Shown: piece after piece, positions 36,582-52,114 of the stretch
How positions within the stretch are numbered: position 1 is the first letter of the stretch
Layout of the letters: every line of letters starts with the position of its first letter
Origin: Microbacterium excoecariae
GTDB lineage: Bacteria > Actinomycetota > Actinomycetes > Actinomycetales > Microbacteriaceae
Reading direction: 5' to 3'
Length of the DNA stretch: 64,000 bases
Assembly: GCF_011326725.1 (NCBI RefSeq)
Contig: NZ_JAANCO010000001.1
Coordinates: 744,001 to 808,000 of the forward strand
Made by a program: the position numbers and the translations under genes
The notes under the pieces: model-generated
Told to the model about the DNA's origin: nothing
Seen by the model: the letters and a program-made list of their open reading frames with translations, nothing else
The model's database searches: none

Positions 36582-36670
36582 GGAGACGTGCCGGAGCGGC
36601 CGAACGGACTTCACTGCTAATGAAGGGTCGGGCTAAAACTCGACCGGGGGTTCAAATCCCCCCGTCTCCG
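36582..36670 (+). tRNA. tRNA-Ser (GCT)
   Basis: 89 nt. The acceptor stem GGAGACG pairs with CGTCTCC, the anticodon loop ACTGCTAA holds GCT, and there is a long variable arm. Discriminator G. The -10-like TAGGAT at 36546 and the terminator after it make a single-gene unit. Confidence 0.95.
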
Positions 36671-36892: not shown

Positions 36893-37657
36893 ATGTCTGA
36901 CCACTCGACCACGGCCAAGGTGCCCTCGACCTTCTCCGCGCTCGCGGCGGAGTTCCTCGGCACGTTCCTCCTCGTCCTCGGCGGCGTCGGATCCGCCCTG
37001 CTCGCCTCCGACGCGGGGACGGGCGTGAACGGATCGAGCCTGGGGATCGGATTCCTCGGCGTCGCGCTGGCGTTCGGCCTCACGGTCGTCGTCGGCGCCT
37101 ACGCGTTCGGTCCCGTCTCGGGAGGCCACTTCAATCCGGCCGTCACCGTGGGCCTCGCGGCGGCCGGGCGCTTCGGCTGGTCAGGCGTGCCCGGCTACAT
37201 CGTGGCGCAGATCCTGGGCGGCGCGGTCGCGACGAGCCTCATCGCGCTCATCGGCTCCTCGCAGGCGGGGTGGTTCGAGACCGCGCACGAATCGGGGTTC
37301 GCGAGCAACGGGTGGGGCGAGCTGTCGCCGGGCGGCTTTGGCATGCTCGGCGCGATCGTGGTCGAGGTGCTGTTCACCGCGATCTTCCTGTTCATCATCT
37401 TGGGCGTGACGCACCCGAAGCGCGGGAACCCGGCGATGGCCGGTCTGGCGATCGGCCTGACGCTCACGCTCATCCACCTCGTGACGATTCCCGTCGACAA
37501 CACCTCCGTCAACCCGGCGCGCTCGATCGCCACCGCGATCTACGGCGGCGGTGAGGCGCTCGGGCAGCTCTGGGTCTTCCTCGTCTTCCCGATCGTCGGT
37601 GGCCTGCTCGCCGGCTACCTGTTCCGACCCCTCCTGGACGGCGAGAAGTCGGCCTGA
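36893..37657 (+). CDS. aqpZ: aquaporin Z-like MIP channel
   Basis: 254 residues, six membrane helices and two NPA-type half-helices: HFNPAVTVG near residue 80 and SVNPARSIA near 205, the variants A-V and A-R typical of AqpZ. These form a water pore in the inner membrane. The gene is monocistronic, with a -10-like TAGCGT at 36842. Confidence 0.92.
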   Translation: MSDHSTTAKVPSTFSALAAEFLGTFLLVLGGVGSALLASDAGTGVNGSSLGIGFLGVALAFGLTVVVGAYAFGPVSGGHFNPAVTVGLAAAGRFGWSGVPGYIVAQILGGAVATSLIALIGSSQAGWFETAHESGFASNGWGELSPGGFGMLGAIVVEVLFTAIFLFIILGVTHPKRGNPAMAGLAIGLTLTLIHLVTIPVDNTSVNPARSIATAIYGGGEALGQLWVFLVFPIVGGLLAGYLFRPLLDGEKSA

Positions 37658-37775: not shown

Positions 37776-37793
37776 GTGAACTAATCGATTCAC
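37776..37793. promoter_or_regulatory. TetR operator and promoter of the ABC importer operon
   Basis: An imperfect palindrome (GTGAACTAATCGATTCAC) lies one base after a -10-like TAGCGT (37770-37775). Its central 16 bases match the perfect palindrome at 44422 in 13 of 16 positions, and both lie one base after their -10 box. Binding here would cover the transcription start and repress the importer. I saw no TPP or FMN riboswitch in this leader. Confidence 0.7.
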
Positions 37794-37832
37794 CTGGTGG
37801 ATCCCCTTCACTCGCAGGAAGCCGAGGCCCCG

Positions 37833-38651
37833 ATGACTCTCGCACCCCCGCACGGCGCGCACGACGCGGCAACGGCCGCCGGATCGCGCTCCGCGGTCCG
37901 CATCTCGGGCGCCGACAAGCAGTTCGCCCTCGGCCGTGGCAAGACCCTCACGGCGCTCGAGGCGGTCGACCTCGAGATCGAGGAGGGCGAGTTTGTCGCG
38001 ATCATCGGCCCGTCGGGCTGCGGTAAGTCCACGATTCTGCGCCTGGCGGCGGGGCTCGAGGAGCCGACGAACGGATCCGTCGAGATCTTCGGTGCCGCGC
38101 CCGAGAAGCTCGCGGCGGAGCACCGCCTCGGCGTGGCCTTCCAGGAGCACGCGCTGCTGCCCTGGGCGTCCGTGCGCCAGAACATCGCGCTGCCGTTCAA
38201 GGTCGCGGGGCGCAAGGTGGACGACCAGCGCGTCGACGGGCTCATCGAGCTCGTCGGCCTGAGCGGGTTCGAGAAGGCCCGGCCCAAGCAGCTCTCGGGC
38301 GGCATGCGCCAGCGGGTCTCCATCGCGCGGGCCCTCGCGCTCAGCCCCGACCTCCTGCTGCTGGACGAGCCCTTCGGCGCGCTCGACGCGGTCACGCGGC
38401 GACGGATGAACGCCGAGCTCGCCCGCATCTGGGCGGAGGAGCGGATCACGACGATCCTCGTCACGCACGACGTCGACGAGGCGCTGATCCTCGCGGATCG
38501 CGTCGTCGTCATGACGGGGCGTCCGGGACGGGTGCGCACGGTGCGGCCCGTCGACTTCCCGCGGCCGCGCGACCGCGACGTCACACGCCGGGACGACTTC
38601 CACGCGATCGTCGACGAGATGACGGGGTTGCTCGACGGGGCCGCGGCGTGA
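37833..38651 (+). CDS. ABC importer ATP-binding protein (SsuB/TauB/ThiZ type)
   Basis: 272 residues from ATG 37833. Walker A is GPSGCGKST near residue 67, the Q-loop is AFQEHALLPW, the signature is LSGGMRQRVSIARAL, Walker B is LLLLDEPFGALD, and the H-loop is VTHDVDEAL. It powers the two permeases that follow by overlap. It is of the family serving nitrate, sulfonate, taurine, thiamine-pyrimidine or riboflavin importers. It is the first gene of the TetR-controlled accessory locus. Confidence 0.9.
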   Translation: MTLAPPHGAHDAATAAGSRSAVRISGADKQFALGRGKTLTALEAVDLEIEEGEFVAIIGPSGCGKSTILRLAAGLEEPTNGSVEIFGAAPEKLAAEHRLGVAFQEHALLPWASVRQNIALPFKVAGRKVDDQRVDGLIELVGLSGFEKARPKQLSGGMRQRVSIARALALSPDLLLLDEPFGALDAVTRRRMNAELARIWAEERITTILVTHDVDEALILADRVVVMTGRPGRVRTVRPVDFPRPRDRDVTRRDDFHAIVDEMTGLLDGAAA

Positions 38652-39400
38652 GGCGCCGCCGGGGCGTGGCGGCCGCGTACGTCGTGGCCGGATCCGTCCT
38701 CCTCGTCGTGGGGGCCGAACTCATCGGCCGCCTGGAGCTCGCCGGGCGGGCATGGCCCCCGCTCACCGACGTCGTGTCGTACGTCGCGACGCCCGCGGGC
38801 GGCAGCCTGCTGTGGCGCAACCTCCTCGTGACGCTCGAATCCGCCGCGAAGGGCTTTCTGCTTGGCGCGGCGGTGGCCCTTCTGGGCGCGGCGCTCGCGC
38901 TCGTGGTGCCGCTCCTCCGGCCAGGGCTCGACCGGTTCTCCGCGATCCTCAACGCGGTCCCGACGATCGCGCTCGCGCCGCTGCTCATCACGACTGTCGG
39001 CCGCGAGGACACCCCCGCCGTCATCGCGGCGCTCAGCGTCGGGTTCCTCATGTTCGTGACCATGACCTCCGCGTTCTCGAACGCCAGCGAGGTCTACACG
39101 GACGTCTTCACGGTGTTCGGGGCCTCCCGGTTCACGCGGCTCGTGCGGTTCGATCTCCCGCGATCCGTGCCCGCGTTCTTCGACGGACTCACGCTATCGG
39201 CGCCGGCGGCGGTGCTCGGCGCGACGATCGGCGAGTGGTTCGGCGCGCCGGCCGGCCTGGGGCTGCTCCTGGTGAGCGCGATGCAGAACTACCAGATGGC
39301 GCTGCTGTGGGCGGCGGCCATCTCGGCGACGCTCGTCTCGCTCGCCGCCTACCTCCTCTGCACGCGCCTGCAGCGCGTCGTCGCGCGGAGGTTCGCATGA
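38648..39400 (+). CDS. ABC importer permease 1
   Basis: 250 residues from GTG 38648 (4-base overlap). Six hydrophobic helices and a BPD_transp_1 fold with the EAA-like loop FTVFGASRFTRLVRFDLPRSVP. It forms the channel with the next permease; two different permeases rather than one dimer occur in some SsuC/TauC-like systems. Confidence 0.87.
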   Translation: MRRRRGVAAAYVVAGSVLLVVGAELIGRLELAGRAWPPLTDVVSYVATPAGGSLLWRNLLVTLESAAKGFLLGAAVALLGAALALVVPLLRPGLDRFSAILNAVPTIALAPLLITTVGREDTPAVIAALSVGFLMFVTMTSAFSNASEVYTDVFTVFGASRFTRLVRFDLPRSVPAFFDGLTLSAPAAVLGATIGEWFGAPAGLGLLLVSAMQNYQMALLWAAAISATLVSLAAYLLCTRLQRVVARRFA

Positions 39401-40152
39401 CCCGCGCGAAGCGGATCCTCGCCGGCATCGCCCACCTCTGGCCGATCGCGCTGGTCGTCGTGGCGTGGGATCTCTGGGTCGTGCTCAACGGGTACACCTC
39501 GACCGTGGCGCCGCGGCCCTGGGCCGTCTTCGCCGACATGATCACGGGGGTCACGGCGTACCTCGCCCCCGCGGCCTACACGCTGGGCGTGTCGCTCGTG
39601 GGCCTCGTTGGCGGGACCCTGGTCGGGTTCGTGTGCGCCATCCTCGTCTGGGCGTCGGCCGCGCTGTCGGGCGTCGTCACGCCGGCGGCCCTCATCATCC
39701 GCTCCGTGCCGATCACCGCGATGATCCCGATCATCGCCCGGATCGTCGGATACGGCGATCCCGCCGTGATCGCCTCGACGGTGCTCATCTGCTTCTTCCC
39801 GGCCTTCGTCTTCACGCTCTCCGGGCTCGCGTCGATCCCCGACAGCAGCCGCGACCTGTTCCGCGTGCTCGGTGCGGGGCGAGCCCAGCTCCTGTTCCGC
39901 CTCGGCGTCCTCTACGCGCTGCCCCAGATGATGGTCTCGGTGCGCATCACGGCGCCGACCGCCGTTCTCGCGGCCATGCTCGCGGAGTTCCTCATGGGCG
40001 CCGACGGGCTCGGCGCGATGTTCTCGACGTCGCGCAGCTATTCCGACATGGAGCGCGCGTGGGGCACGGCCCTCGTGGCGACCATCGTCTCCGTTTTGGT
40101 GTTCGTGGCCGCCCGCGGCCTCGAACGCCGGGTCGTCGCGCGCGTCGCGTGA
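39397..40152 (+). CDS. ABC importer permease 2
   Basis: 251 residues from ATG 39397 (ATGA overlap). Same fold as permease 1, with the EAA-like loop FRVLGAGRAQLLFRLGVLYALPQ near residue 155 and the late motif EFLMGADGLGAMF. A 49-base gap with AGGAG leads to the binding protein. Confidence 0.88.
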   Translation: MTRAKRILAGIAHLWPIALVVVAWDLWVVLNGYTSTVAPRPWAVFADMITGVTAYLAPAAYTLGVSLVGLVGGTLVGFVCAILVWASAALSGVVTPAALIIRSVPITAMIPIIARIVGYGDPAVIASTVLICFFPAFVFTLSGLASIPDSSRDLFRVLGAGRAQLLFRLGVLYALPQMMVSVRITAPTAVLAAMLAEFLMGADGLGAMFSTSRSYSDMERAWGTALVATIVSVLVFVAARGLERRVVARVA

Positions 40153-40201
40153 TCCGCATCGTCCTGCTCCACCCCTTCATCACGTCCCCCAAGGAGACAC
40201 C

Positions 40202-41254
40202 ATGAATCGCTCGTCCCTTCGCCGCGCCCGAGTCGTGGCCGCGACAGGAGCCACGCTCGTCACCGCCGCCGTCCTGGCCGGGTGCTCCGGCACGTCCGCC
40301 GAGGAGGAGACCGCCGAGGGGCTGACGACGGTGCGCGTCGCCCTCGGATGGATCTCGAACGTCGAGTGGGCGGGCTTCTGGATCGCCGATGCCGAGGGTT
40401 ACTACGAGGAGGAGGGGCTGGACATCGAGTGGATCGGCGGCGGCCCCAACGCGCCGACCACCATGCAGTCGGTCGCGGCGGGCGACGCAGACCTCGGCAT
40501 CAACGCCGGCGGCGAGCAGTGGATCTCCTCCTTCGACGACGGCAACGACTGGACCGCGGTCGGCGCGCTGTTCCAGGAGAGCCCGGGGGCGATCGTGTCG
40601 CTCGCCGAGGATCCGGTGACCTCCGCCGAGGATCTCGTCGGCGAAACCGTCCTCGGCCAGGAGGGCACGCAGATTATCTACGACGCCATGTTCCACCTCG
40701 AGGGCCTCGAGCCCGACTACGAGTTCCTGCCCGTCGGCTTCGACATCGCCCCGCTCGTCGAGGGCCAGGGCAAGACCTACACCGCGTACGCGACGAACCA
40801 GCCGATCATGCTCGAGGAGCAGTACGACATGTCGCCCGACGACTACGTCGTCACGATGTACTCCGACATGGGCATGCCGATGTACGGGAACATCGTCTAC
40901 GGCGACTCGTCGTACGTCGAGGAGAACGCCGACGTCATGGAGGGGTTCCTCCGCGCCTCGATCCGCGGGTGGCAGGAGAACGGCGACGACCCGGCCGTCG
41001 GCGCCGAGCTGGCGGTTAACGAATACGGCGCCGACCTCGGCCTCGACCTCACGCAGCAGACCAAGGAGAACGACCTCCAGCAGGAGCTCGTCGTCGGCTC
41101 CTACGGGGATCCGCTGTTCTGGATCGACACGGACCGCCTCGGCGGGGAGATGTACGACGGCATGACCGCGGCCGGATACGAGGGCATGCCCGACCCGGAG
41201 AGCTACGTCGACCTCAGCTACCTCGAGGCCGCCTACGAGGGCCTGGGGGAGTGA
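40202..41254 (+). CDS. ABC importer substrate-binding lipoprotein, NMT1/THI5 type
   Basis: 350 residues. A signal peptide ends in the lipobox LAGC near residue 26, so it is lipid-anchored outside the membrane. The mature part begins TTVRVALGWISNVEWAG and has YYEEEGLDIEWI and AGDADLGIN, the pattern of NMT1/THI5-like binding proteins. Known members bind thiamine pyrimidine precursors (ThiY), riboflavin (RibY), taurine or sulfonates. The many acidic and aromatic residues fit a small polar ring compound. It precedes the deaminase gene by seven bases. Confidence 0.88.
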   Translation: MNRSSLRRARVVAATGATLVTAAVLAGCSGTSAEEETAEGLTTVRVALGWISNVEWAGFWIADAEGYYEEEGLDIEWIGGGPNAPTTMQSVAAGDADLGINAGGEQWISSFDDGNDWTAVGALFQESPGAIVSLAEDPVTSAEDLVGETVLGQEGTQIIYDAMFHLEGLEPDYEFLPVGFDIAPLVEGQGKTYTAYATNQPIMLEEQYDMSPDDYVVTMYSDMGMPMYGNIVYGDSSYVEENADVMEGFLRASIRGWQENGDDPAVGAELAVNEYGADLGLDLTQQTKENDLQQELVVGSYGDPLFWIDTDRLGGEMYDGMTAAGYEGMPDPESYVDLSYLEAAYEGLGE

Positions 41255-41261
41255 GCCGCGC

Positions 41262-42281
41262 ATGACGATCGCACAGACCGCGGAGACCGGATCCGCCACC
41301 CCCACGCGCGACCTGCGCGCGCTGCCGAAGGGGCACCTCCACCTGCACATGGAGGCGGGGATCCGTCCCGCCACGCTCGCCGAGCTCCGCGAGGCGCACG
41401 GGGTGCCCGAGCGCGACATGACCGCCTACGAGGGCTTCACGGCCTTCTCCGCGATGTACCGCACGCTCCTCGACGTCATGCCGGACGACGACAGCGTCTC
41501 GCGCCTCGTCGACGAGATTTTCGAGGACAGCGCGTCCGACGGGGTCTCGTGGTTGGAGCTCAACGTGAGTCCGGCGTTCTACGCCCAGCGCCTCGGGTCC
41601 CTCGAGGCCGCGATCGACATGCTCATCGCGGAGTCGACGGCGGCGTCGCGGCGCCACGGCGTTGCTTTCGGACTCATGGTGACGGCCGACCGCACGGCGG
41701 GGCTCGCGCCCGCCGTCGAGCTTGCGCGGGCCGCGGCGCCCTACGCGGGGCGCGGCGTCGTCTCGATGGGGCTCGCGGCCGAGGAACGCGGGTTTCCCGC
41801 GGCCGACTTCGGGCCCGCCTTCCGCATCGCGAAGGATGCGGGCCTGCAGATCACCCCGCACGCGGGCGAGCTCGTGGGGCCCGAGTCCGTGCGCGGCGCG
41901 CTCGACGTCCTGGGCGCCGACCGCGTCCTCCACGGCGTGCGCTCGCTCGAGGATCCGGAGCTGATCGCGGAGCTCGTGCGCACCGGCATCCCGCTCGACG
42001 TGTGCCCCACGTCGAACCTCGTTCTCGTCGACTCGGTCACCGACCTCGCGCGGCATCCGATCCGCGAGCTCCTCGACGCGGGCGTGCGGTGCTCGATCAA
42101 CGCCGACGACCCGATCCTGTTCGGCCCCGGCATCCTCGACGAGTACGTCACGTGCCGCGAGGTCATCGGCCTGAGCGACGAGCAGCTCGCGGACTGCGCG
42201 TGGACGTCGATCGAGACGACCCTCGCGCCGGCCGAGGTCAAGGCCGACGCGCGCGCCCGGATTGACGCCTGGCTCGCGTAG
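41262..42281 (+). CDS. adenosine deaminase family enzyme
   Basis: 339 residues. The zinc ligands of the ADA fold are kept: HLHLH near residue 27, PHAGE (catalytic Glu) near 204, LHGVRS near 225 and SINADDP near 281. The usual HLDG/HLEG stretch reads HMEAG, a small change in the first active-site loop. Family members deaminate adenosine, adenine or other 6-aminopurines. Placed between an importer and two monooxygenases, it more likely acts on an aminated heterocycle that the importer brings in than in general purine salvage. A strong hairpin follows. Confidence 0.82.
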   Translation: MTIAQTAETGSATPTRDLRALPKGHLHLHMEAGIRPATLAELREAHGVPERDMTAYEGFTAFSAMYRTLLDVMPDDDSVSRLVDEIFEDSASDGVSWLELNVSPAFYAQRLGSLEAAIDMLIAESTAASRRHGVAFGLMVTADRTAGLAPAVELARAAAPYAGRGVVSMGLAAEERGFPAADFGPAFRIAKDAGLQITPHAGELVGPESVRGALDVLGADRVLHGVRSLEDPELIAELVRTGIPLDVCPTSNLVLVDSVTDLARHPIRELLDAGVRCSINADDPILFGPGILDEYVTCREVIGLSDEQLADCAWTSIETTLAPAEVKADARARIDAWLA

Positions 42282-42289
42282 GACATGAT

Positions 42290-42323
42290 GGCGCCGGCCG
42301 CGACCGGGAGCGCGGCCGGCGCC
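42290..42323 (+). terminator. strong hairpin between the deaminase and monooxygenase genes
   Basis: Perfect 13-bp arms (GGCGCCGGCCGCG and its complement) with an 8-base loop, followed by CCCTTTCTCCC. It could end or attenuate the importer transcript before the first monooxygenase gene. Confidence 0.6.
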
Positions 42324-42352
42324 CCCTTTCTCCCGGTGTGAGGAGCATCCCG

Positions 42353-43735
42353 ATGAGTACGCTGCGTTTCGGAGTCTTCGAGGTCATGGGGCCGCAGGTG
42401 GGCGGCACCTACAGCTGGGCCCATCCGCTGAGCGCCGGCGAGCGCTACGCGGATCCGGACCACTGGATCCGCTTCGCCCGCGCCACGGAGGAGGCGGGCT
42501 TCGACTTCCTCTTCTTCGCGGGCGGATACGGGTACCCGATCATCGACGGCGATCTGTCCGAGATCGCGGCCCTCCGGGGCATCAACTTCGGCGGGATGGA
42601 CCCGGACTACCTGATCCCGCTCCTCGCGCACGCCACGACGCACCTCGGGTTTGTCGTCACGATGCCCACCGGCATCGATCACCCGGTCCAGCTCGCGCGC
42701 CGCTTCACGACGCTCGATCACCTCACCGGTGGGCGCGTCGGCTGGAACATCGTCACGGGCGCGTCGCAGAACGCGGTGGCGGACGTCTTCGGGCACGCCG
42801 AGATGGTGTCCCACGACACCCGCTACGCGATGGCCGCCGAGTTCGTCGAGCTCGCCGTGCGCATGTGGGAGACCTCCTGGAACGACGACGCGCTCGTGAT
42901 GGACCGCGCGACCGGGGTGTTCGCGCTCCCCGACCGGATCCATCCGCTCGACTTCGCGGGGGAGCACTACGCGTCGCGCGGCTACTTCAGCGCGCCGCCG
43001 TCGCCGCAGCGCACGCCCGTCCTGTTTCAGGCCGGCACCTCGCCGACCGGCCGGGCGTTCGCGGCCGGTAACTCGGAGTGCGTGTTCGTGCAGGCGACGA
43101 CGCCCGAGCGGACGGCCGCAGCGGTCGCCGACATCCGCCGGCGGGCGGAGGAGGCCGGGCGCGACGGCGCCGCGTTGCGGCTCATGGCGGGCATGACGGT
43201 GTTCGTCGCGGAGACCTCCGAGCGGGCACGGGAGCTTGCGGCCGAGTTCGACGCGCTCCAGACCGACGAGATCGTGGCGTCGCTGTACGCGGGGAACACG
43301 GGCATCGACCTGCTCGCGCTCGACCCGGACCGCACGCTGCACCAGGTGCTCGACCAGGGCGGCCCGGTCGGACAGATGGGAACGAGCAACATCGAGCGCT
43401 TCCTCGGCGACGACGCGCCCACGGTGCGGGAGATCCTCGACCAGCTACGCGGGCTCGGCACGCGCGGGTTCCGCGTCGTGGGGGACGGCGCCGAGGTCGC
43501 GGACCAGATCGAGGCGCTCGCCGCGGCCACCGGCCTCGACGGGTTCCTCATCGAGCCCGCGTTCGACGCGTACGACATCGAGGCATTCGGTCGCCTCGTG
43601 ACGCCCGTGCTCCGTGCGCGGGGCCGAATCGCCCACGGCACGCCGGGGGAGACGCTCCGCGCGCGCATGTCGGGGGTGCCCGGGGCCGCTCGACTCGGCG
43701 GATCCCACCCGGTGCTGTCCGCGGTGTCCGCCTGA
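42353..43735 (+). CDS. FMN-dependent monooxygenase, NtaA/SnaA/DszA group (first copy)
   Basis: 460 residues from ATG 42353, with AGGAG upstream. It has the bacterial luciferase-like fold: RFGVFEVMG at the start, EEAGFDFLFFAGGY, RRFTTLDHLTGGRVGWNIVTG near residue 125, and PPSPQRTPVLFQAG near 220. The GWNIVTG block separates this group from F420 enzymes. These proteins use reduced FMN from a separate reductase, and such a reductase is encoded at 45855. Known relatives attack nitrilotriacetate, dibenzothiophene sulfone and, in Microbacterium, riboflavin (RcaE). The substrate here is unknown. Confidence 0.88.
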   Translation: MSTLRFGVFEVMGPQVGGTYSWAHPLSAGERYADPDHWIRFARATEEAGFDFLFFAGGYGYPIIDGDLSEIAALRGINFGGMDPDYLIPLLAHATTHLGFVVTMPTGIDHPVQLARRFTTLDHLTGGRVGWNIVTGASQNAVADVFGHAEMVSHDTRYAMAAEFVELAVRMWETSWNDDALVMDRATGVFALPDRIHPLDFAGEHYASRGYFSAPPSPQRTPVLFQAGTSPTGRAFAAGNSECVFVQATTPERTAAAVADIRRRAEEAGRDGAALRLMAGMTVFVAETSERARELAAEFDALQTDEIVASLYAGNTGIDLLALDPDRTLHQVLDQGGPVGQMGTSNIERFLGDDAPTVREILDQLRGLGTRGFRVVGDGAEVADQIEALAAATGLDGFLIEPAFDAYDIEAFGRLVTPVLRARGRIAHGTPGETLRARMSGVPGAARLGGSHPVLSAVSA

Positions 43736-43745
43736 GGCGGCGCAA

Positions 43746-43751
43746 TACCCT
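43746..43751 (+). promoter_or_regulatory. -10 box of the TetR gene, leaderless type
   Basis: TACCCT ends six bases before the ATG at 43758. No operator-like palindrome is visible here, so the regulator may be expressed constantly. Confidence 0.5.
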
Positions 43752-43757
43752 GGGGTG

Positions 43758-44348
43758 ATGTCACAGACGTCCGAGCGCGACCGGCTCCTCGGCCTCGTCG
43801 CGGACCTGATCCTCCGCGACGGCATGATCGGCGTCAGCCTCAGCGCGATCGCGCGCGGGGTCGGCTCCAACAACCGCATGCTGCTGTACTACTTCGGATC
43901 CAAGGAAGAGCTCCTGACGGAGGCCTCCGTCACCGCCTTCAACCGGTTCCCCCGGCTCCGCACGCTGTTCGCCCAGCTCGCGACGCCGGGGGAGCTCGGC
44001 CCCAAGCTCCGGGCGGTATGGGAGGACATCGCCGCACCCGAGCACGAGGGCTTCCTGCGCGTGTATTTCGAGCGCTTCGGCGTCGCCGTCAGCGAACCGG
44101 CCCTCTGGAAGACGTTCATCGAACAGTCGAGCCGCGACTGGCTGGCGCACACGACGTCCGCGCTCGTCGCGCGCGGCCACGACCCCGCCCTCGCGCGAAA
44201 CGTGGCGACGTACCTCGTCGCGGTGTGGCGTGGCCTGCAGATGGGGCTGCTGACGGGAGAGCCGCGCGAGCAGCTCGCGGCCGCGAGCGCCCTCGCCGTC
44301 GCGGGAGCCGTTGCGGCGCTGGAGGAGGCGCCGCAGGCCGCGGCCTGA
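43758..44348 (+). CDS. TetR family regulator
   Basis: 196 residues. The N-terminal HTH fits TetR: GMIGVSLSAIARGVGSNNRMLLYYFGSKEELL near residues 22-55. The C-terminal ligand-binding half is helical. It lies inside the accessory locus, and two matching palindromes (37776 and 44422) sit on the promoters on either side of it. It is the obvious repressor, released by the pathway substrate or an intermediate. Confidence 0.88.
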   Translation: MSQTSERDRLLGLVADLILRDGMIGVSLSAIARGVGSNNRMLLYYFGSKEELLTEASVTAFNRFPRLRTLFAQLATPGELGPKLRAVWEDIAAPEHEGFLRVYFERFGVAVSEPALWKTFIEQSSRDWLAHTTSALVARGHDPALARNVATYLVAVWRGLQMGLLTGEPREQLAAASALAVAGAVAALEEAPQAAA

Positions 44349-44414
44349 CCGGCGGGTCGCGCACGCGCCGCGAGAGTTTCTTGCCCGCGTGACACGGCCG
44401 AAACATGTCGCTCG

Positions 44415-44437
44415 TACCGTATGAACTGATCAGTTCA
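44415..44437. promoter_or_regulatory. -10 box and perfect 16-bp TetR operator
   Basis: TACCGT (44415-44420) is followed after one base by TGAACTGATCAGTTCA (44422-44437), a perfect palindrome. It would cover the transcription start of the second monooxygenase operon. The importer promoter has the same layout. Confidence 0.75.
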
Positions 44438-44458
44438 GATTCGGACGAAGGGCACCCC

Positions 44459-45817
44459 GTGGCAGAACCGTGGAAGATCGGCATGTTCCAGTGCGCGGGC
44501 CTCATGGGCTCGTGGAAGCTGCCCGAGAACCGCTCGACGCAGTTCCTCGATCTCGGCCACTGGATCCGCATGGCCCAGCAGCTGGAGGACGCGGGCGTCG
44601 ACTTCCTCTTCTTCGCGGATGACTACGGCTATCCGGTCGTGGACGACGGGATCCCGGCCACCGCGATCCGCGGGGGCGTCCAGTTCCCCAAGGGCGACCC
44701 GACGATGATCCTGCCGGCCGTCGCGGCCGTGACCTCCCGCCTCGGCCTCGTTACGACGCTGTCGACCCAGGTCGAGCTGCCGGCCATGGTGGCCCGCAAG
44801 ATGTCGACCCTCGACAACCTCACGGGCGGGCGGATCGGCTGGAACATCGTCACGGGCGCGGGGCAGAACGCGTCGGCGCGCCTGTTCGGCCGCGCCCTGA
44901 CCGATCACGACAAGCGCTACGAGATCGCGGACGATCACGTCGACCTCAGCCTCAAGCTGTGGGAGGGGTGCTGGGACGACGGCGCGCTCCTCGGGGATCG
45001 CGAGGGCGGCGTGTACGCGGATCCGGAGGGCGTCCGCGAGATCGCGCACGAGGGGCCGCACTTCCGCTCGAACGGCGTGCTCCAGGTCCCGCCGGGGCCG
45101 CAGCGTACGCCCGTATTGTTCCAGGCGGGCGCGTCGGCGCCGGGGCGCGCGCTCGCCGCGAAGTACGCCGAGGCGGTCTTCCTGGCCGCCGAGGTCGATG
45201 CGCTCACCGCGCAGATCGCGGACATCCGGCGCCTCGCGGACGCGAACGGCCGCGACGGATCGGCGATCTCCTGCCTCATCGCCGGGACGTTCGTGGTCGC
45301 CGAGACGACCGAGGAGGCCGAGCGGATCCGTGCCCGTCAGACCGCGACCAAGAGCCTCGACGACGCGGCCGCGCAGTACGCGTTCTTCACGGGGCTCGAC
45401 CTGTCGAAGATGGACCCCGACCGCCCGCTCGACCCGAGCGCCGGCCTGACCCAGACGGGGCGCACGAACGTCGAGCGCTTCCTCGGGCCCGACGCCCCGA
45501 CGGTGCGCGAGATCCTCGAGGAGTTCCAGGCCAACAGCGTGATGGGCAAGCCGTTCGTGGGCACGCCCGCCGAGGTCGTCGATCAGGCCGCGGAGGTGCT
45601 CGCCCGCACGGGGGCCAACGGCTTCCTCGTGCAGCCCGACCACACGGGCACCTTCGACAGCTTCGTGGAGCTCGTGATGCCGGAGCTGCGTCGCCGGGGG
45701 CTCGCGGGCCACCAGGAGGAGGGCGAGACCCTGCGCGAGCGCCTCACGGGCGGATCCGCGCACCTCGCGCCGTCCCACCCGGGCGCCGCGTACCGCCGAA
45801 CCACGGCGCTGGTGTGA
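44459..45817 (+). CDS. FMN-dependent monooxygenase, NtaA/SnaA/DszA group (second copy)
   Basis: 452 residues from GTG 44459, with GAAGG upstream; the in-frame ATG at 44405 lies upstream of the operator and would add unrelated residues. It has the luciferase-like fold: WKIGMFQCAG, EDAGVDFLFFADDYGYP, RKMSTLDNLTGGRIGWNIVTG near residue 120, and PPGPQRTPVLFQAGAS. It is a clear paralogue of the first copy with the same FMN-type signature. The two may act on successive intermediates. It is followed by the reductase gene after 37 bases. Confidence 0.88.
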   Translation: MAEPWKIGMFQCAGLMGSWKLPENRSTQFLDLGHWIRMAQQLEDAGVDFLFFADDYGYPVVDDGIPATAIRGGVQFPKGDPTMILPAVAAVTSRLGLVTTLSTQVELPAMVARKMSTLDNLTGGRIGWNIVTGAGQNASARLFGRALTDHDKRYEIADDHVDLSLKLWEGCWDDGALLGDREGGVYADPEGVREIAHEGPHFRSNGVLQVPPGPQRTPVLFQAGASAPGRALAAKYAEAVFLAAEVDALTAQIADIRRLADANGRDGSAISCLIAGTFVVAETTEEAERIRARQTATKSLDDAAAQYAFFTGLDLSKMDPDRPLDPSAGLTQTGRTNVERFLGPDAPTVREILEEFQANSVMGKPFVGTPAEVVDQAAEVLARTGANGFLVQPDHTGTFDSFVELVMPELRRRGLAGHQEEGETLRERLTGGSAHLAPSHPGAAYRRTTALV

Positions 45818-45854
45818 GCCGGCCCGCCGACCTGCAGCACACGGGGAGACGACC

Positions 45855-46373
45855 ATGACGAACGAGAAGCCACAGATCACGGAGGCCGAGGCGCGCGCGT
45901 TCCGCGACGCCATGGGCGCGTACGCGTCGGGTGTGACGGTGGTGACGGGCCACGACGGCGACGAGCCGATCGGCTTCACGTGCCAGTCCTTCTCGAGCGT
46001 GTCCCTCGACCCCATGCTCGTCTCGATCTGCGTCATGAAGTCCTCCACCACGTATCCGCGGATCCGCGAGACGGGGCGCTTCGCGGTGAACGTGCTCACG
46101 GATCGCCAGGCGGAGACGTCGACCCGGTTCGCGCGCCGGGGGACGGACAAGTGGGCGGGCACGACGTGGCAGGCGTCGGGCGCGGGCAACCCGCTGCTCG
46201 AGGCGGCGCTGATGTCGGCGTGCTGCACCATCTGGCAGGAGCTGGACGCAGGCGATCACTGGATCGTCCTGGGGGAGGTGCGCGAGCTCGTCACGGGCGG
46301 CGAGGCCGCGGATCCGCTGCTGTTCTACCGCGGCGCCTACCGCCGTCTGGCCGCGATTGAGGCCGTCGCCTGA
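45855..46373 (+). CDS. flavin reductase (HpaC/FMN_red-like)
   Basis: 172 residues from ATG 45855, with GGGGAGA upstream. FRDAMGAYASGVTVVTG, then GFTCQSFSSVSLDPMLVSICV, is the flavin-binding split-barrel core. The late motif HWIVLGEVRELV completes the fold. It reduces free FMN with NAD(P)H and supplies the two monooxygenases of the locus. It is the last gene before the rRNA operon. Confidence 0.92.
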   Translation: MTNEKPQITEAEARAFRDAMGAYASGVTVVTGHDGDEPIGFTCQSFSSVSLDPMLVSICVMKSSTTYPRIRETGRFAVNVLTDRQAETSTRFARRGTDKWAGTTWQASGAGNPLLEAALMSACCTIWQELDAGDHWIVLGEVRELVTGGEAADPLLFYRGAYRRLAAIEAVA

Positions 46374-46865: not shown

Positions 46866-48398
<1,533 letters not shown>

Positions 48399-48691
48399 AG
48401 CTTCGATGACAATCATTCTTTGGGGTGGTTGTTCAGAGAGCCCGTTCTCCGGCAAATGTTCGGAGCGGGTAGCTCATGGGTGGAACATTTGACAAGAGCC
48501 TGATTGGTGCTGTGGTTTGTGAGTACGTCGCTTCGGTGATGGGAAAGCGGATCGTGGGGCTGGTCGGGCTATGCACGTTGTTGGGTCCTGAAGGCTCAGC
48601 CGCCTTTTGGTGACTGGGTTTTCTGCCCTCATGCTGCATGCTCCTGTTGGGGTGTGTGGGTGGGGTGCACCCGTACTTTGAGAACTACACA

Positions 48692-48701
48692 GTGGACGCG
48701 A
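48692..48701 (+). other. 23S rRNA processing stem, left arm
   Basis: GTGGACGCGA pairs with TCGCGTCCAC at 51874-51883, bracketing the 23S gene. The spacer 48394-48754 holds this stem and the right arm of the 16S stem but no gene. Confidence 0.7.
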
Positions 48702-48754
48702 GCATCTTAAAGAAGCGAACATGAATAGATTTTTTCTGTTTGTGGCTCATGTGA

Positions 48755-51850
<3,096 letters not shown>

Positions 51851-51995
51851 ACACTTCGTCTTCTTGATGTTGTTCGCGTCCACTTTGTGGTTCTCAGGGT
51901 ACGGTTGTGCTTTTGAGGGCTGGTGATAAGTAAACAGTGTTGTGCTGTTGAAACACAGGTTTACCCGCGCCTTTGGGGTGTGTGGTTGGTAGGTG

Positions 51996-52114
51996 TTTCG
52001 GTGGTTATAGCGAGAGGGAAACGCCCGGTCTCATTCCGAACCCGGAAGCTAAGCCTCTCAGCGCCGATGGTACTGCACCGGGGACGGTGTGGGAGAGTAG
52101 GTCGCCGCCGGACT
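51996..52114 (+). rRNA. rrf: 5S ribosomal RNA
   Basis: 119 nt. It starts GTTTCGGTGGTTATAGC and contains CATTCCGAACCCGGAAGCTAA. The 3' end CCGCCGGACT pairs with the 5' end as usual for 5S. Confidence 0.95.

Follow-up and report, generated by a model that had tools for sequence, protein, structure and literature searches.

Known systems and the locus of Microbacterium excoecariae

Bacterial N-demethylation of caffeine relies on Rieske oxygenases of the NdmA type, and riboflavin catabolism on the rca cluster, of which riboflavin kinase is presumably a member. According to the accessible part of PMC12746152, the rca cluster has five genes, and RcaE cleaves the ribityl chain of riboflavin oxidatively by attack at C1′. 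Among aminohydrolases, Patl2390 (cog1816) accepts N6-methyl- and N6,N6-dimethyladenine, not adenine, in the available portion of PMC13296781; that paper describes the way in which modified bases of nucleic acids lose their modifications as still not established, even in E. coli. The cluster of 8-oxoguanine deaminase (8OGD) and N2,N2-dimethylguanine hydrolase removes alkylamines, and 8OGD/AtzB cluster members hydrolyse N2,N2-dimethylguanine (excerpts of PMC13054789). The stretch analysed here, referred to as the window, covers 64,000 nucleotides of Microbacterium excoecariae (C1:744001-808000; genome of 2.71 Mb in two contigs) and carries at 37833-46373 a locus of nine genes for an ABC transporter, a deaminase, two flavin mononucleotide (FMN)-dependent monooxygenases (MO1 and MO2), a TetR-type regulator and a flavin reductase.

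We read the locus as a regulon under TetR control for the scavenging of a purine that most likely carries an additional N-substituent, and give this reading as a whole a probability of roughly 55%. It brings together a defined gene set with two operators, a module conserved in relatives, a monooxygenase clade that is sister to RcaE and the recurring company of purine-type genes. The regulon is conserved and almost certainly real, and a purine is its likely substrate. The components are of known kinds. The open-licence PMC literature searched yielded no paper on this gene set and no description of the combination, the operator or the proposed reaction, and the accessible part of PMC6278475 holds no link to the locus. 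A first-pass annotation of the window, made by a model from the letters alone, had likewise named no described pathway with this exact set.

RcaE of Microbacterium maritypicum (PDB 5w48, 5w4y, 5w4z) is the closest sequence to both MO1 and MO2 and the closest fold to MO1, but identity is 36 and 42%, respectively, and the locus contains a deaminase, an ABC transporter and a TetR gene. A Pfam scan of the nine genes found no flavokinase family, which separates the locus from the rca cluster and agrees with the earlier remark that riboflavin kinase is absent. The likeness to caffeine N-demethylation lies in the proposed net chemistry, purine N-dealkylation by oxygenases; the enzymes of the locus, however, are flavin enzymes, and the same scan found no Rieske oxygenase among the nine genes, so the locus is not of the Ndm type. 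The deaminase belongs to the family of the base-level ADA-type deaminases (PDB 3ou8 and 3rys; Patl2390, by family only) and shares the catalytic positions of 3ou8 and 3rys, which we take to be adenine deaminases, but forms a separate subfamily with signatures of its own. The substrate-binding lipoprotein (SBPa) shares family and fold with the NMT1/THI5 binders ThiY (3ix1), a thiamin-binding protein (4nmy) and Thi5, though it is only 17-22% identical across the best four fold-search rows. Members of the 8OGD/N2,N2-dimethylguanine hydrolase cluster stand beside the same module in other genomes; the window locus has none.

Gene Order and Transcription Units

The nine open reading frames are co-directional on the + strand, and every one carries a Pfam family above cut-off. 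They encode, in order, the transporter ATPase (37833-38651, ATG start with an alternative in-frame GTG at 37797; PF00005), permeases 1 and 2 (38648-39400 and 39397-40152; both PF00528), the NMT1/THI5-type lipoprotein SBPa (40202-41254; NMT1, PF09084), the ADA-family deaminase (41262-42281; A_deaminase, PF00962), MO1 (42353-43735; Bac_luciferase, PF00296), the TetR-type regulator (43758-44348; TetR_N, PF00440), MO2 (44459-45817; also PF00296) and the flavin reductase (45855-46373; Flavin_Reduct, PF01613), for which the best NCBIfam models, HsaB and others, score below cut-off. With MO2 taken from 44459, the intergenic gaps are −4, −4, 49, 7, 71, 22, 110 and 37 bp. Order and families are thus as the first-pass annotation gave them.

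The layout needed correction at MO2. Its open reading frame opens at ATG 44405, but an operator at 44422-44437 falls within this 5′ extension. Homologues, with script-called starts, begin near the position of GTG 44459, downstream of the operator, and this GTG is preceded by GAAGGG; the true start is probably GTG 44459. Because the operator lies inside the extension and the homologues start beyond it, two transcription units are proposed, one from the ATPase to TetR and the other comprising MO2 and the reductase.

Conservation of the Module

At 1e-60, matches to the deaminase occur in 15 of 249 genomes of the family, the own genome (G000) counted. The order ATPase-permease-permease-SBP-deaminase, where SBP stands for substrate-binding protein, is found on one strand in the window and in 11 other genomes (stretches L024, L025, L026, L028, L038 of Microbacterium lacus, L039, L040 of Glaciihabitans tibetensis, L041, L044 of Nesterenkonia muleiensis, L060 of Streptomyces jeddahensis and L201; L027 duplicates L040, and L193 duplicates L039), so it is not unique to the window. 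A monooxygenase of the MO1/MO2 clade is present in 10 of these 11 genomes. Genome G072 is included among them: its contig in L026 stops after the deaminase, and TetR, MO2 and the reductase, with an operator, lie on contig C31 (L202). In S. jeddahensis, no clade monooxygenase was found within the fetched stretch (L060).

A second arrangement, type b, combines a different NMT1 transporter with MO1, TetR and varying subsets of further genes (nucleoside hydrolase, ADA-family deaminases, a phosphorylase-like gene and an 8OGD-type gene). It occurs in L029, L030, L032, L033 and L046 and, from the monooxygenase side, in L192, L196-L198, L200 and L203. A class-wide search with MO1 gave hits in 2 of 394 genomes at 1e-145 (the own genome and G561). 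The monooxygenase profile matched 77 of 398 Microbacteriaceae genomes at 1e-138, a count in which weaker rows may lie outside the clade. A phylum-wide profile search gave 9 of 396 genomes at 1e-110; outside G000, the 10 places found in this search are of the DmoA/HcbA1 type and served as control stretches. Up to four clade monooxygenases occur in one stretch (L207), compared with two in the window.

Operator and Regulon

Operator 1 (37777-37792, TGAACTAATCGATTCA) lies ahead of the transporter unit within GTGAACTAATCGATTCAC (37776-37793), and operator 2 (44422-44437), a perfect palindrome TGAACTGATCAGTTCA, lies ahead of MO2. Position 37776, at which the first-pass annotation began the locus, is the first base of the palindromic GTGAACTAATCGATTCAC. 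The pattern TGAAYYNNNNRRTTCA has two sites in the whole 2.71-Mb genome, at window positions 37777 and 44422, against one for the reversed-pattern control. As far as the operator tells, the locus is therefore self-contained, as had been claimed, with both sites of the genome at the locus itself.

The core TGAA-N6..9-TTCA is found upstream of the ATPase in 11 of 11 loci of the window's type (type a), with a motif seeded by the window's palindrome. In 20 module-bearing stretches, 27 operator sites were counted versus 0.05 expected from a Markov-1 simulation, a count that is partly circular since the pattern was derived from some of those same loci; sites in trans and the free positions of the pattern are the freer tests. 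The 25 other stretches scanned alongside contained no operator site. All but one of the 27 sites (the exception is L060, position 4447) lie roughly where an ATPase, monooxygenase, deaminase or SBP gene starts.

At the scale of whole genomes, 20 relatives with monooxygenases contain 63 operator sites versus 3 for the reversed pattern, and 10 genomes without a monooxygenase match contain 5 versus 2. Together with the two sites of the own genome, the 63 form a set of 65, of which 30 sit 9-64 bp upstream of one of 55 monooxygenase genes obtained from the Microbacteriaceae profile search, where about 0.008 would be expected from the chance per site. The best reference matches of the monooxygenases behind these 30 sites are MO1, MO2 and MO3 rows (identity 45-100%), MO3 being a third type found in relatives, and 10 of the 30 are in stretches without an NMT1-type SBP match (L199, L208, L209, L242-L246, L248 and L252). 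All 30 monooxygenase sites have C or T at position 10, which the pattern leaves free, and 27 have A or G at position 7. Of a further fourteen sites, seven lie ahead of a transporter ATPase; SBP, flavin reductase and ADA-family genes account for two each, and a xanthine-dehydrogenase-type operon for one. This last site, in G052 (L251), lies ~120 bp upstream of the operon, which encodes a xanthine-dehydrogenase-type protein with 53% identity to its G000 counterpart and, behind it, an 8OGD-like aminohydrolase. Fifteen of the 20 monooxygenase-anchored stretches carry an operator.

A TetR gene together with palindromic sites before the controlled genes is what characterises a one-component regulon of the TetR type, and on these sequence features, with binding itself predicted, the locus is almost certainly such a regulon. 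Clade paralogues scattered over a genome with an operator just upstream were also seen: G087, G090, G246 and G1024 each have three, and in G068 one of two is so placed.

Monooxygenases and Flavin Reductase

MO1 and MO2 exceed the cut-off of the NtaA/DmoA model TIGR03860 (403.2 and 401.0 versus 279.7 bits) and are 44.5% identical to each other. A tree of 34 rows unites MO1, MO2 and MO3 in a clade (support 93/92), which RcaE joins (100/99) on a branch of 0.93; DmoA, LadA, HcbA1, YtnJ and five further NtaA-type proteins encoded in the own genome lie apart. Of the characterised sequences, RcaE comes nearest to MO1 and MO2 alike, but no characterised enzyme groups tightly with them; RcaE is a sister only, with identities below the level of an orthologue. 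The model of MO1 (pLDDT 79.8, 11 aligned rows) has RcaE as its best fold match, with a TM-score of 0.86; RutA and BdsA are among the proteins with the same fold.

Reductases near other copies of the module are only 29-35% identical to that of the window, so the flavin reductase was rejected as a conserved orthologue; the function is kept, not the gene. Elsewhere in the genome (G000:C1:2352001-2380000; L124, L125), there are four more NtaA-type monooxygenases, two flavin-reductase-like genes and peptide-type ABC transporter genes, the last recognised by eye. These monooxygenases take a separate tree branch, and no operator of this kind is found there.

Deaminase and Transporter

The deaminase passes TIGR01430 (243.7 versus 216.55 bits) and retains H27, H29, H200, E203, H224, D282 and D283, residues whose roles we assume from mouse ADA. 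In the tree, its subfamily is separate from the solved 3ou8/3rys and 6n9m proteins; another protein of the own genome, which has two further ADA-family genes, does group with 3ou8/3rys. The window group is marked by the signatures LPK[GA]HLHxH.E, PHAGEL and NADDPxLFGP.

SBPa passes PF09084 (104.1 versus 20.5 bits), and its model (pLDDT 87.2, 12 rows) has thiamin- and FAMP-binding proteins and Thi5 as best fold matches. Type-a and type-b transporters were considered as one purine transporter family, which was dropped on account of their separate branches and SBPs of only ~30% identity.

Company of Purine Genes

L030 and L046 encode an 8OGD above the NCBIfam cut-off next to the module; L052 and L053, which have no module, encode one next to a member of the subfamily to which the window deaminase belongs. 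Weaker relatives are an 8OGD-like protein in L251 (268 of 532 bits) and, adjoining an MO1-like gene in L152, an aminohydrolase nearest to 5′-deoxyadenosine deaminase (409 of 522). An operon behind an operator in L245 contains, in a row, an MO2-like, an ADA-family, an aldehyde-dehydrogenase-type and an MO1-like gene. In two related genomes (L249:6530-10183 and L250:9085-14281), an operator is accompanied by an ADA-family gene, an MO1-like gene (50-52%) and a pair of sulfopyruvate-decarboxylase-like genes, with a GMC oxidoreductase in addition in L250. L052, from an Acidimicrobiia metagenome-assembled genome, has the same deaminase subfamily, a type-b transporter and three 8OGD-type aminohydrolases, one above cut-off; it also has a xanthine-dehydrogenase-type protein, a Rieske protein and oxygenases of two other families, a different oxygenase set around the same core.

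The own genome has a further cluster at 642-662 kb of C1. It encodes an allantoate amidohydrolase above cut-off (490 versus 479), another ADA-family protein, a xanthine-dehydrogenase-type protein and, at the border of the stretch, a fragment resembling allantoinase. Its phosphorylase-like protein has 74.5% identity to the one in L030, to which its type-b-like transporter is also related (SBP 46%, ATPase 69%). In G561, a genome of the same genus, deaminase and MO1 occur together with an SBP that has 58% identity to the one in this cluster. Relatives of the window SBP in Proteobacteria offer weak evidence for purines: in A. tumefaciens (34%) and Kozakia (36%) they adjoin an aminohydrolase nearest to 5′-deoxyadenosine deaminase, below cut-off; in Polaromonas (36%), a nucleoside deaminase and a thioinosine phosphorylase, above cut-off, lie within a few kb; the Rhizobium relative (31%) adjoins a cytochrome P450, and that of Microvirga (38%) is without annotation.

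Among 20 monooxygenase-anchored stretches, hand-picked from the Microbacteriaceae profile matches, some from genomes known from the deaminase search, and thus not a random sample, 11 have at least one purine-type gene (ADA-family, 8OGD-type, nucleoside-hydrolase-type or phosphorylase-like) by similarity to a reference set. The 11 do not include L210, whose weak (29%) aminohydrolase match in tblastn looks by eye like an imidazolonepropionase. Two stretches (L204 and L207) have a transporter only. None of the 10 control stretches around DmoA/HcbA1-type enzymes contains a purine-type gene (Fisher p 0.004, or 0.005 without L193), and one, L154, carries an NMT1-type transporter; the controls, however, are generally shorter (five of 10 under 16 kb) and mostly from other families.

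Like this limit of the controls, several findings weigh against a purine regulon. The remaining seven of the 20 stretches have neither a purine-type gene nor a transporter, and 21 of the 65 operator sites have no assigned target (six were inspected and show no fitting gene; 15 were not fetched). For the nucleoside-hydrolase and phosphorylase-like neighbours, "uridine" models give the top scores, below cut-off, and at 467 of 780 bits the xanthine-dehydrogenase-type protein of L251 does not reach the NCBIfam cut-offs. The decarboxylase-like pair of L249 and L250, with the GMC oxidoreductase, is superfluous to a simple purine route. The fold of MO1 leaves the reaction open, as its relatives include alkane, dimethyl-sulfide and hexachlorobenzene monooxygenases. 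Finally, the SBP of the window is only ~30% identical to type-b SBPs, which makes the link of its transporter to purines indirect.

Proposed Function and Alternatives

Taken together, the gene families and their company suggest that the substrate probably belongs to the purines. A methylated base or an N6-substituted adenine of the cytokinin type would be the most likely candidate. The first-pass annotation had proposed TetR-controlled uptake, deamination and flavin-dependent oxidation of an N-heterocycle, and this route is supported and appears plausible; of the purine, pyrimidine or pteridine-like rings that it left open, the module neighbours in other genomes favour purine over riboflavin, thiamine and pteridine.

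In the proposed mechanism, a ligand would release TetR from both operators, and the NMT1-type ABC transporter would bring the compound into the cell. The ADA-family enzyme would then remove a 6-amino or 6-alkylamino group, probably at the level of the base; import and deamination are deduced from the protein families. MO1 and MO2, supplied with reduced FMN by the reductase, would oxidise an N-adjacent carbon so that the N-C bond is cleaved, comparable to the action of RcaE on the ribityl chain, and the paralogues MO1, MO2 and MO3 might serve different positions or side chains. The resulting oxopurine would enter a xanthine-dehydrogenase/ureide route encoded elsewhere (C1, 642-662 kb). N-dealkylation as the oxidation step is a tentative suggestion, drawn from the chemistry of RcaE and from the single operon with an aldehyde dehydrogenase (L245): for an RcaE-like monooxygenase acting on a purine, the simplest outcome would be removal of an N-alkyl group with release of an aldehyde, for which an aldehyde-dehydrogenase-type gene is expected. 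The aminohydrolase literature cited above fits modified purines by analogy. More speculative still is the broader idea of flavin-dependent purine N-dealkylases, that is, multi-copy RcaE-like two-component monooxygenases under TetR control that would strip imported purines of their N-alkyl groups, be it the methyls of bases derived from RNA or the side chains of cytokinins.

Attack on the ring is the strongest alternative, though an unlikely one. The monooxygenases would open or hydroxylate the heterocycle in the manner of RutA or xanthine dehydrogenase, after deamination and with no side chain removed. The deaminase does precede MO1 in its unit, RutA and BdsA share the fold, and the case for aldehyde release comes from one operon. 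MO1 and MO2, however, are distant from RutA (49.5 and 60.7 bits with a cut-off of 498.3) and nearest to RcaE, a side-chain cleaver, and ring hydroxylation is already covered by the xanthine-dehydrogenase-type enzyme of the genome.

A non-purine aminated heterocycle (thiamine-type aminopyrimidine, pteridine, flavin or pyrimidine nucleoside) is slightly less probable. The SBP model is nearest to thiamin- and FAMP-binding proteins and Thi5, the substrate of RcaE is riboflavin, the best "uridine" matches noted above would suit a pyrimidine nucleoside, and the decarboxylase-like pair of L249 and L250 resembles in kind the heterocycle decarboxylase LumK/LumL of lumichrome breakdown (accessible part of PMC12746152). 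Against such substrates stand the 8OGD-type genes above cut-off, the ADA-family deaminase itself, the operator before the xanthine-dehydrogenase-type operon of G052 and the allantoate amidohydrolase near a related transporter. Salvage of thiamine pyrimidine is retained as a rival on the family and fold of the SBP. Riboflavin degradation was not a first choice, with monooxygenases that are mere sisters of RcaE, no flavokinase and purine-like company.

Catabolism of cytokinins, as a narrower version of the purine regulon, is about as improbable as a non-purine ring: N6-isopentenyl- or benzyladenines would be imported, with cleavage of their N6 side chain by MO1/MO2 or with the ADA-family enzyme as a cytokinin deaminase. 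The known cytokinin deaminase Patl2390 belongs, like E. coli Add, to cog1816 and takes N6-substituted adenines, not adenine (available portion of PMC13296781), and L245 has its aldehyde-dehydrogenase-type gene. The window deaminase, however, is likened to Patl2390 by family alone, the holders of the module as a group show no tie to plants in the data examined, and a deaminase that removed the side chain would leave the monooxygenases without a task. An accidental grouping of ordinary genes that do not work together, to which the seven bare monooxygenase stretches might be attributed, is very improbable given the order conserved in 11 other genomes and the operator shared in cis and in trans.

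With the TetR-controlled purine regulon as the preferred reading, a clade of RcaE-like monooxygenases gains a testable function and a defined operator. If N-dealkylation is correct, flavin enzymes would join purine demethylation and provide a possible sink for cytokinins or RNA-derived methylated bases. Whatever the substrate, the regulon points to the TetR ligand as the key to function.

Other Features of the Region

Between the deaminase and MO1, a very stable RNA hairpin is predicted at 42290-42323 on the + strand (−36.6 kcal/mol for a 61-base piece, z −3.0). It has no clear T run downstream and is a possible attenuator. Upstream of the locus are a tRNA (36582-36670) and a MIP-channel-like gene (36893-37657, named by eye). 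Directly downstream, a complete rRNA operon (16S, 23S and 5S) occupies 46866-52113 and accounts for a drop in G+C content to about 0.55.

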